Positions 13,811-17,121 of a stretch of DNA of 64,000 nucleotides are shown here, one piece after another (the first letter of the stretch is position 1; every line of letters starts with the position of its first letter). The stretch is from positions 1 through 64,000 of the forward strand of contig JADZAP010000025.1 of the NCBI GenBank assembly GCA_020852705.1, in the 5' to 3' direction. Source of the stretch: Ignavibacteria bacterium. GTDB lineage: Bacteria > Bacteroidota > Ignavibacteria > Tepidaquicellales > OLB5. The position numbers and the translations under genes were made by a program. The notes under the pieces are model-generated. The model saw nothing but the letters and a program-made list of their open reading frames with translations, was not told the origin of the DNA and searched no databases.

Positions 13811-14902
13811 ATGAGTAAATATCCTCCTGTTTATTATTCTGATTATTTGCAAATTGATAAACTTCTCAGTTCTCAAAAACTAAAGAGCAACGAGTACGGG
13901 CATAAAGCCCATGATGAAATGCTCTTTATCATTGTTCACCAGGTTTATGAGCTTTGGTTTAAGCAAATACTGCATGAAATTGATTCTGTTAATACGATGT
14001 TTCGTGATGATATTGTTGATGAAAAAAGTATAGGTACTGCAGTTTCTAGGTTGCACAGAATTACCGAAATTCAAAAGCTGATGGTTGAACAGCTTCGTGT
14101 TATTGAAACCATGACACCGCTTGATTTTCTTGAGTTCCGTGATTTTCTGATTCCCGCAAGCGGTTTCCAAAGTTTTCAGTTCAGACTTATTGAAAATAAA
14201 CTTGGTCTTTCTGATAATAAACGCATTCAATACAATAATGTTGACTATCTAAATACTCTGGAAGAACCTCACAAAAAACTGATATTTGATACTGTTAAAG
14301 ACCCTTCACTATTTGAACTCCTAAATAAGTGGCTTGAGCGTACTCCGTTTATCAATACAAAAAAGTTTAATTTCTGGCAGAGCTATAAACAGACTGTTGA
14401 AAATATGCTTGAAAAGGACAGAAATATTATTTTAGAAAATAAAACACTCTCAGAAACAAAAAGAGAATTTCAGCTTAAGAATATAGATATAACCCTTGAA
14501 AATTTTGATGCATTATTTGATGAGAAAAAGTATGATCAGCTCTTAAATGAAGGCAAAAGACATTTAAGCAATAAAGCAATGCTTGCGGCAATATTCATAA
14601 ATTTATACAGGGATGAGCCAATACTTCACATGCCGTATAATTTGCTGAATTATTTGGTTGAAATTGATGAACTTTTCACCGAGTGGCGTTACCGGCATGC
14701 TCTAATGGTTCACCGTATGATTGGAGCTAAAATAGGTACAGGAGGTTCTTCCGGTCACCAGTATTTAATGCAGACTGTTGAAAAACACAGGGTATTTGTC
14801 GATCTGTTTAACCTTCCAACTTACCTGATTCCCCGCTCTGAACTGCCAAAACTGCCAGTTGAGCTTGTGAGGGAATTAGGCTTTAATCATTCAAAAGCTT
14901 AA
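13811..14902 (+). CDS. kynA: Tryptophan 2,3-dioxygenase
   Basis: HDEMLFIIVHQVYELWFKQILHEIDSV; FQSFQFRLIENKLGL; WRYRHALMVHRMIGAKIGTGGSSGHQYL. Confidence 0.95.
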   Translation: MSKYPPVYYSDYLQIDKLLSSQKLKSNEYGHKAHDEMLFIIVHQVYELWFKQILHEIDSVNTMFRDDIVDEKSIGTAVSRLHRITEIQKLMVEQLRVIETMTPLDFLEFRDFLIPASGFQSFQFRLIENKLGLSDNKRIQYNNVDYLNTLEEPHKKLIFDTVKDPSLFELLNKWLERTPFINTKKFNFWQSYKQTVENMLEKDRNIILENKTLSETKREFQLKNIDITLENFDALFDEKKYDQLLNEGKRHLSNKAMLAAIFINLYRDEPILHMPYNLLNYLVEIDELFTEWRYRHALMVHRMIGAKIGTGGSSGHQYLMQTVEKHRVFVDLFNLPTYLIPRSELPKLPVELVRELGFNHSKA

Positions 14903-16330
14903 AAGTGAATTAAACTAATTATTCAATAAGAGTCGTATTCTAATTCGTGAAAATTTGTGAAATTAGTGGTTATTGGTTTAAATGAAGAATAATTTAACCA
15001 CAAATTGCACCAATTACTCGAAATGAAATAAAAGCATTCAAAAGCTTAACAGTGATTTAAACAAACAACTCAAAATAAGTTGTATTTTAATTCGTGAAAA
15101 TTTGTGAAATTAGTGGTTATTGGTTTAAATGAAAAATAATTTAACCACAAATTGCACTAATTACTCGAAATGAAATAAAAGCATTCAAAAGCATAACAGT
15201 GATTTAAACAAACAACTCAAAATAAGTTGTATTCTAATTCGTAAAAATTTGTGAAATTAGTGGTTATTGGTTTAAATGAAGAATAATTTAACCACAAATT
15301 ACACCAATTACTCGAAATGAAGTAAAAGCATTCAAAAGCTTAAAAGTGAATTAAATTAATTATTCAAAAAGAGTTGAATTCTAATTCGTGAAATTAGTGG
15401 TTATTGGTTTAAATGAAGAATAATTTAACCACAAATTACACCAATTACTCGAAATGAAGTCTATCTATCTATATATATTAAGAAATAATGTCAGAAATAC
15501 TATATAAAGATGAATCATATAAAATTATTGGGTGTTGTTTGGAAGTTTATAATGAAATGGGACCGGGTTTCTTAGAAGTTGTTTATAAAGATGCTCTCGA
15601 AATTGAGTTTCAGATGAATAATATTCCATATACAAGAGAAAAGCAATATGAAGTTATATATAAAGGTAAACCAACACATAGAAAATATAATGCCGATTTT
15701 GTAATTTTTGAAACAATACTTTTAGAAGTAAAAGCATTCAAAAGATTAACTGATGAAAATTTAATGCAGACATTAAATTATTTAAAAGTTTCAAAATTGA
15801 AATTAGGTTTATTAGCTAATTTTGGTGAAAGTTCATTTAATTCAAAAAGAGTTGTATTTTAATTCGTGTAAATTTGTGAAATTAGTGGTTATTGGTTTAA
15901 ATGAAGAATAATTTAACCACAAATTGCACTAAATACTCGAAATGAAGTAAAATCATTCAAATCTTAACAGTGATTTAAACAAACAACTCAAAATAAGTTG
16001 TATTCTAATTCGTGAAAATTTGTGAAATTAGTGGTTATTGATTTAAATGAAGAATAATTTAACCACGAATTGTACCAATTACTCGAAATGAAATAAAAGC
16101 ATTCAAAAGCTTAAAATGAATTAAACTAATTATTCAAAAGAGTTGTATTCTAATTCGTAAAAATTTGTGAAATTAGTGGTTATTGGTTGAAATAAAGAAT
16201 AATTTAACCACGAATTGTACCAATTACTCGAAATGAAATAAAAGCATTCAAAAGCTTAAAAGTGAATTAAACTAATTATTCATAAAGAGTTGAATTCTAA
16301 TTTGTGAAATTAGTGGTTATTAAAAATATT
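14888..16330. repeat. ~147-bp repeat array interrupted by a GxxExxY gene
   Basis: Unit starts (CATTCAAAAGCTTAA...) at 14888, 15035, 15182, 15329, in-gene 15735, 15954, 16100, 16245; spacing 147, 147, 147, then 146 and 145. Each full unit carries CTAATTCGTGAAAATTTGTGAAATTAGTGGTTATTGGTTTAAATGAAGAATAATTTAACCACAAATTGCACCAATTACTCGAAATGAA. Confidence 0.95.
15488..15862 (+). CDS. GxxExxY family protein (PD-(D/E)xK_3 nuclease-like)
   Basis: GPGFLEVVYKDALEIEF (GxxExxY motif) and YNADFVIFETILLEVKAFKRLT (D...ExK-like); ~124 aa. Confidence 0.9.
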   Translation: MSEILYKDESYKIIGCCLEVYNEMGPGFLEVVYKDALEIEFQMNNIPYTREKQYEVIYKGKPTHRKYNADFVIFETILLEVKAFKRLTDENLMQTLNYLKVSKLKLGLLANFGESSFNSKRVVF

Positions 16331-16332
16331 AT

Positions 16333-17121
16333 ATGAAAATCGATCTTTCAGGAAAAAATGCTGTAGTTTGCGGCGCTTCGCAGGGAATAGGCAGAGCTAT
16401 TGCAATTGAATTTGCTCAATGCGGAGCTAATGTTGTATTGCTTGCACGAAATGAAGAGTCGTTAAGGAAAGTTTTAAGAGAGCTCCCTGCATCTAAAACG
16501 CAGAATCATAACATTATTATTGCTGATTTTTCTCAGCCGGAAGAACTTCGCAATAAAATGAAGAACTTTGCAAGTGAGGCAAAGCCAGTGCATATACTTG
16601 TTAATAATACAGGCGGTCCAAAGGGAGGAGAGATATATAAAGCTGAAACAATTGAGTTTGAGCTGGCTTTCAGAAATCATTTGATCTGTAATCAGATTAT
16701 GGTTCAGGCACTGCTTGAAGGTATGAAAAGAAATCAATACGGAAGAATTATAAATATTATTTCAACATCTGTAAAACAGCCAATCAAAAATCTGGGAGTT
16801 TCAAATACTATTCGTGCTGCTGTTGCAAATTGGGCAAAAACTTTATCAGTTGAGCTTGCCTCATTTGGTATAACTGTAAATAACATTTTGCCCGGTGCTA
16901 CCAAAACCGAAAGACTTAAAGGTATATTCAGGTCCCGCTCAGAAACATCCGGCAGATCAATTGAAGAAATTGAAAAGGAAAGTCTTGCAGAAATTCCAGC
17001 CGGCAGGTTTGCAGAACCTCAAGAACCCGCCTATGCTGCAGCATTTTTGGCATCACCTTTTGCAGCATATATAAACGGCATTAACCTGCCTGTTGATGGC
17101 GGCAGACTGAATTGTTTGTAA
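16333..17121 (+). CDS. SDR family oxidoreductase
   Basis: GKNAVVCGASQGIGRAIAIEFAQCGANVVLLARN; LVNNTGGP; INGINLPVDGGRL. The usual YxxxK is not obvious. Confidence 0.88.
   Translation: MKIDLSGKNAVVCGASQGIGRAIAIEFAQCGANVVLLARNEESLRKVLRELPASKTQNHNIIIADFSQPEELRNKMKNFASEAKPVHILVNNTGGPKGGEIYKAETIEFELAFRNHLICNQIMVQALLEGMKRNQYGRIINIISTSVKQPIKNLGVSNTIRAAVANWAKTLSVELASFGITVNNILPGATKTERLKGIFRSRSETSGRSIEEIEKESLAEIPAGRFAEPQEPAYAAAFLASPFAAYINGINLPVDGGRLNCL

Follow-up and report, generated by a model that had tools for sequence, protein, structure and literature searches.

The tandem repeat array between the genes for tryptophan 2,3-dioxygenase (TDO) and a short-chain dehydrogenase (SDR) is best explained, with a probability that we place at roughly three in four, by a very small transposon-like element with terminal inverted repeats (TIRs) of ~30 bp and a Cas4-like nuclease as its sole gene. 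The nuclease would cut the words of its own TIRs, host repair would copy the element, and the copies seen here would be tandem duplicates, mostly without the gene. The DNA analyzed (hereafter the window) comprises positions 1-64,000 of the forward strand of contig JADZAP010000025.1 from Ignavibacteria bacterium (GCA_020852705.1), 64,000 nucleotides in total.

The array lies in the gap between the two genes, and its repeats follow one another at spacings of 147, 147, 137, 488 (the gene-bearing copy), 146, and 145. The original prediction had taken a 147-bp repeat as the unit. This division was not upheld, as the natural unit consists of an element of 115-125 nt, with a TIR at either end, and a spacer of 22 nt, and the array was redivided into six such short elements, one gene-bearing element of 466 nt, and a truncated first copy, all separated by near-identical 22-nt spacers. 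Each TIR is made up of about three words of the CAC-NAATT kind (~9-10 bp), about 9 nt apart. The features are as follows:

14885..14972, + strand: truncated left-most copy, without the left TIR, in which the final TDO codons and the TDO stop lie
14995..15119, + strand: gene-less element 1, type-1 interior (115/125 identities to the full element)
15142..15266, + strand: gene-less element 2, type-1 interior (by alignment to the full element)
15289..15403, + strand: gene-less element 3, type-2 interior, the clearest gene remnant (109/115 identities to the full element)
15404..15425, no strand: spacer TTGGTTTAAATGAAGAATAATT (by alignment of the copies)
15426..15891, + strand: full element, TIR - GxxExxY gene - TIR, 466 bp, with TAACCAC...GTGGTTA ends and equal anatomy in congeners
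15426..15455, + strand: left TIR TAACCACAAATTACACCAATTACTCGAAAT (sequence; inverted-repeat test, L031)
15488..15862, + strand: GxxExxY gene for a predicted 124-aa PD-(D/E)XK nuclease (profiles, alignments, AF2, Foldseek)
15860..15891, - strand: right TIR (TAATTCGTG...GTGGTTA), starting at the stop codon of the gene (sequence; alignment of the copies)
15914..16037, + strand: gene-less element 4, type-1 interior (by alignment to the full element)
16060..16182, + strand: gene-less element 5, type-2 interior (by alignment to the full element)
16205..16319, + strand: gene-less element 6, type-2 interior (by alignment to the full element)
14973-14994, 15120-15141, 15267-15288, 15892-15913, 16038-16059, and 16183-16204: near-identical spacers

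The final codons and stop (HSKA*) of the TDO open reading frame (13811-14902) derive from the truncated first copy, and the ends of the gene differ in relatives. The type-1 interiors (14995-15266 and 15914-16037) carry a small inverted repeat, ACAACT...AGTTGT, which type 2 lacks. No known RNA family was found across 14500-16700.

All six complete short copies could be aligned collinearly to the gene cassette, with 104-115 identical bases each when long gaps were allowed; in each, the matched parts are the two TIRs and, between them in the order of the gene, its EVKAFK region and its C-terminal codons. The alignment scores lay 4.5-9 standard deviations above those of copies with shuffled interiors, and for no copy did any of the 200 shuffles reach the real score, the narrowest margin being that of the copy at 15914-16037 (145.2 vs 139.3). 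The alignment of the units to the gene region, which had been proposed as a check, came out in favor of the original prediction. The two gene segments matched by the 147-nt unit gave E = 1.1e-4 and 7e-7 against the whole 2.94-Mb genome, and a chance match in A+T-rich DNA was ruled out by the interior shuffles together with these values. As had been claimed, both halves of the unit occur in the GxxExxY gene (15725-15750 and about 15838-15868, the latter comprising the last codons, stop, and flank, recur in the units), and the unit flank ACTCGAAATGAAGT is present at 15447-15460. The path from gene to unit is less simple than had been supposed. Deletion of 15461-15729 leaves one mismatch (GATTAA vs GCTTAA) instead of the exact junction; the GAAGT junction is present in the copies at 15289 and 15914, while the remaining copies read GAAAT; and more than two deletions, along with substitutions, are required where two had been thought sufficient.

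The near-identical spacers point to a single insertion that was then duplicated in tandem, and not to a series of independent insertions, and the alignments argue for a subsequent loss of most of the gene from what would then be the short copies. In the gene-less copies of congeneric species, no gene remnants were detectable (z about 0), so that descent by deletion is shown only for the window array and the congener copies may have arisen otherwise. The idea that the units are collapsed copies of a repeat-plus-gene cassette thus holds for the window array, where the remnants are collinear and bounded by TIRs that had not been recognized in the prediction, and it is not shown for the congener copies. 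A MITE should have an interior derived from its parent, and this is met by the window copies and not by the congener copies.

It could be that the array is merely an ordinary tandem duplication of intergenic DNA, including part of a resident gene, with no mobile element involved. The spacers do show tandem duplication at the window locus, but as a full explanation this very improbable reading is contradicted by what other genomes show: members of the gene family have flanking TIRs in many of them, and insertion addresses vary, with presence or absence of the element in relatives. An inverted repeat was found to span the gene in 56 of the 78 testable GxxExxY loci of one genome scan (score at least 28), compared with 0.25% of offset positions, and TIR arms within a locus matched each other better than cross-locus pairs (39/78 vs 7% at a score of at least 36). 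In a second set of loci, TIRs flanked 46 of 51 genes vs 1 of 190 controls, and they also flank a GxxExxY gene on a Bacteroides plasmid and another in an Oscillatoria contig. The TIR words vary by element and include CAC-RAATT, CAC-AGATTAAAA, CGCAAAG, GCAGATT, and ATTAAG, among others. At the Treponema, Fusobacteria, Gemmatirosa, and Sphingomonas loci, the inverted-repeat scores were near control level. As judged from these sequences, elements in which inverted repeats enclose this gene are found again in many bacteria, together with short relatives that lack it. No prior description of such a GxxExxY element was found in the open-licence literature, to which the search was confined, and a description elsewhere is not excluded. 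Note that in a Sphingomonas plasmid record (L304) the GxxExxY gene lies between fabD and fabG with one upstream CGCGAAG-type repeat and no TIR pair.

The protein encoded by the window cassette matches only the GxxExxY/PDDEXK_3 profiles, namely TIGR04256 (E = 4.5e-39, 133.4 bits vs a curated cut-off of 35) and PF13366 (E = 1.9e-35, 122.2 bits vs a curated cut-off of 22); a search of a defense library gave a weak Cas4 profile match (E = 0.0026). Alignments identified candidate catalytic residues E30, D70, E80-x-K82, and Q94-xxx-Y98, and the invariant positions include E30, D70, E80, K82, N97, and Y98. Q94 and Y98 form the QxxxY motif known from RecB/Cas4-type nucleases. The AlphaFold2 model was confident (pLDDT 96.6), and its best Foldseek matches were SSO0001 (4ic1, E = 3.6e-5), which is a Cas4 protein, and the lambda-exonuclease family, with I-Bth0305I as a weak fold match; a search of the sequences of solved structures returned no credible relative. 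On the strength of the model, the Foldseek matches, and the invariant D70/E80/K82, the protein meets the definition of a PD-(D/E)XK fold and is predicted to be Cas4/lambda-exonuclease-like, its nuclease activity being inferred. Among six congeneric genes, dN/dS was 0.03-0.15 for the pairs in which it could be computed, with dS near saturation in several, and these ratios show purifying selection on the gene. A phage origin was considered and rejected, no relative having been found among the phage records. In one published study (PMC8934634), a pipeline reported a GxxExxY domain in place of an expected cas4 gene.

The window's genome contains six GxxExxY genes, two of which lack TIRs, and 37 TIR-core sites with at most one mismatch (15 in the array and 22 outside it), compared with none for the reversed pattern. 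In the proposed search of this genome for the unit, TIR-type segments occur elsewhere and the complete unit does not. The results named in advance as supporting were obtained, with gene-less copies at other sites, complete genes in the expected place inside the repeat, and presence or absence at orthologous sites. The full-element anatomy was found at the equivalent TDO/SDR gap in three congeners. In a set of 12 genomes from the genus, one of them that of the window, the contents of the two gaps next to the SDR gene range, depending on the species, from full elements through gene-less TIR pairs and half-remnants to no element at all. One congener (G006) has an element between its HEAT and DinB genes, which in the window lie 13 nt apart with no element. 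The suggestion of a mobile or recombinogenic element in a parent/MITE-like relationship is supported by this pattern of presence and absence; that the nuclease drives the mobility is only inferred.

Several other arrangements were seen in these genomes. The TDO/SDR gap of G009 (L120) holds a second GxxExxY gene, with TIRs and broken by one stop. Another GxxExxY gene of the window's genome (L034, about 900-2500) lies amid many CTTTGCG/CTTAGCG-type repeats, and two more (L032 and L033), with TGTCAGAATCAGGATT-type flanks, adjoin apparent type I restriction-modification genes. Other contigs (L043, L044, L023, L010, and L016) carry repeats in which an end of the GTGTAATTCGTGGTTA type is joined to TTGATTTATAAAATCAAT and a CCCCTCTCC/GGAGAGGGG palindrome, with no bounding by two TIRs in the sequence read.

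In Flavobacterium, palindromes of ~60 bp, consisting of two TIRs almost touching, were present in 10, 4, and 7 copies in three genomes, with none in the control. A 61-bp doublet of this kind gave a very strong folding signal in the hairpin test (z = -10.6), and the window palindromes gave z = -2.2 and -3.5. The gap between the SufE and DUF59 genes holds full elements in seven species and gene-less palindromes of several word types in 11, and no element in G160, G117, and G106. At the miaB/sigma-54 address, a single change of TIR type falls on the nuclease tree (21 rows), compared with seven on the tree of the sigma-54 host gene (22 rows). The TIR type thus follows the nuclease clade and not the host gene tree, which indicates that closely related hosts exchange the gene along with both of its TIRs. 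Two loci with nearly identical flanks (L204 and L312) carry different palindromes in one spot, and 3 of 16 palindromes or elements were nested near the center of another palindrome, compared with 0 of 96 controls. Some Flavobacterium genomes have gene-less palindromes of a type without a matching resident gene; in G059, most palindromes are of the AGATTAAAA type, yet no resident gene with such a TIR was found, and these are possibly relics of a replaced cassette. The empty sites are too diverged to reveal a target-site duplication, a defined target, or the exact boundaries of the elements.

One interpretation of these data reverses the direction, with the gene-less palindromes being older, the nuclease gene entering at the palindrome center, and most gene-less copies being unoccupied homing sites and not the products of deletion. 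A good part of the evidence above also fits such homing-like behavior, including the position of the gene exactly between the arms, the nested cases, the common Flavobacterium palindromes with almost no interior, the congener copies without gene remnants, and the finding that closely related species can have unlike cassettes at a single address. The six gene-less copies of the window do, however, hold gene remnants in order, and fully empty gaps occur besides palindromes. This direction remains a tentative possibility overall and may be valid outside the window.

The same data could also be taken to mean that the element has a host-beneficial role, in defense or in RNA 3'-end or hairpin regulation, and is inherited vertically with little present mobility. 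The retention of one address in many Flavobacterium species, the purifying selection, the strong hairpin potential, and the weak Cas4 profile match are all compatible with such a role, but cassette exchange at fixed addresses and the varied locations indicate movement. We regard this reading as unlikely, and it and mobility are not mutually exclusive.

Across the phylum, the GxxExxY gene was present in 77 of 158 sampled genomes, and CCAC-NRATT palindromes numbered 84 in these 77 genomes vs 5 in the 81 without the gene. The reversed control pattern gave six palindromes in all 158. At least two palindromes were found in seven gene-bearing genomes and in none without the gene (p = 0.006). Palindromes of one word type exceed chance only in gene-bearing genomes. 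The association was not corrected for kinship and is concentrated in few genomes, with 42 palindromes coming from a single one, and the pattern was limited to one word family and a narrow range of lengths. The window's genome scores 0 with this pattern because its own elements are longer.

The element encodes no joining enzyme, and it could be that a conventional transposase moves it in trans, the GxxExxY gene being cargo or a hitchhiker; Y1 transposases were present in most other genomes searched. Against this decidedly unlikely arrangement, one locus after another has GxxExxY as the gene enclosed by the TIRs, and the TIR type tracks the nuclease clade. In addition, the Y1 genes checked elsewhere are flanked by different repeats, with CCACNRATT sites few or absent, and the window's genome gave no Y1 match, Y1 being the only transposase class searched.

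The preferred reading, a nuclease-bearing element copied by host repair, can be laid out in steps that remain inferred, from the cutting of the TIRs and its specificity to its role as the driver of movement and the repair or copying itself. Most likely, the nuclease would recognize its own TIR words, perhaps as a hairpin or cruciform formed by the paired TIRs, and would cut at these words or at the palindrome. Host break repair would then place copies of the element at other sites, among them palindromes that belong to other types of element and were already present. In the window lineage, the element would have been tandemly duplicated together with its 22-nt spacer, and all array copies but one would have lost most of the gene to become MITE/REPIN-like gene-less copies. 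A nuclease cut followed by host repair would account for the exchange of cassettes at fixed addresses, the nesting, the derivatives without a gene, and the association of palindromes with the gene. Against it stand the absence of an encoded joining enzyme and the fact that no movement has been observed.

More broadly, the GxxExxY elements could be a widespread, undescribed mobile class, in which a lone Cas4-like nuclease mobilizes TIR cassettes and their palindromic derivatives via host break repair, nuclease specificity and TIR words co-evolve, and the A+T-rich CACGAATT-, CAGATTAA-, and CTTTGCG-like intergenic repeats seen beside the GxxExxY genes are their remains; we consider the case for this generalization to be evenly balanced. 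If true, a common protein family of unknown role would gain a function, the origin of a class of short intergenic palindromes would be explained, and a nuclease without a joining enzyme would be able to sustain a mobile repeat family, as a second solution to the task of REPIN/RAYT. The link between TIR word and nuclease clade gives direct, testable predictions on DNA recognition.

Among known systems, TIR transposons (insertion sequences) and MITEs share with the GxxExxY elements their TIRs, internal-deletion derivatives, and orthologous presence or absence. They differ in that the sole gene here encodes a nuclease of ~125 aa, with no DDE or other known transposase, and no target-site duplication was seen at the diverged empty sites. 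Free-standing homing endonucleases, including I-Bth0305I, are likewise lone nuclease genes with apparent exchange at fixed addresses, but the GxxExxY elements have paired TIRs, dispersed gene-less copies, and varied addresses. A homing endonuclease is defined by cutting the unoccupied allele and copying itself into it, and what was seen here is confined to the exchange of cassettes at fixed addresses. An integron cassette would call for an integron integrase alongside; the neighbors of this array are the TDO and SDR genes. The Cas4/lambda-exonuclease family (SSO0001, 4ic1) provides the best fold matches, QxxxY after ExK, and the weak profile match, whereas the GxxExxY protein is smaller and its gene is bordered by inverted repeats and not in a cas locus. 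In REPIN/RAYT systems, a chromosomal gene is flanked by related repeats, with dispersed hairpin-forming palindromic doublets and tandem clusters (PMC3116915), and the GxxExxY system shares all three: the repeat-flanked gene, the dispersed hairpin-forming doublets, and the tandem clusters. A RAYT as the mobilizer in the window's genome was rejected, as no Y1 match was detected there. The RAYT is a Y1/HUH tyrosine transposase (PF01797), unlike the PD-(D/E)XK nuclease found here; the GxxExxY termini are A+T-rich word repeats, and the gene-bearing cassette is itself exchanged between species. By analogy, and with mobilization by the nuclease inferred, the GxxExxY element would work like a REPIN/RAYT or MITE/parent pair, yet would not be a member of the REPIN/RAYT group.
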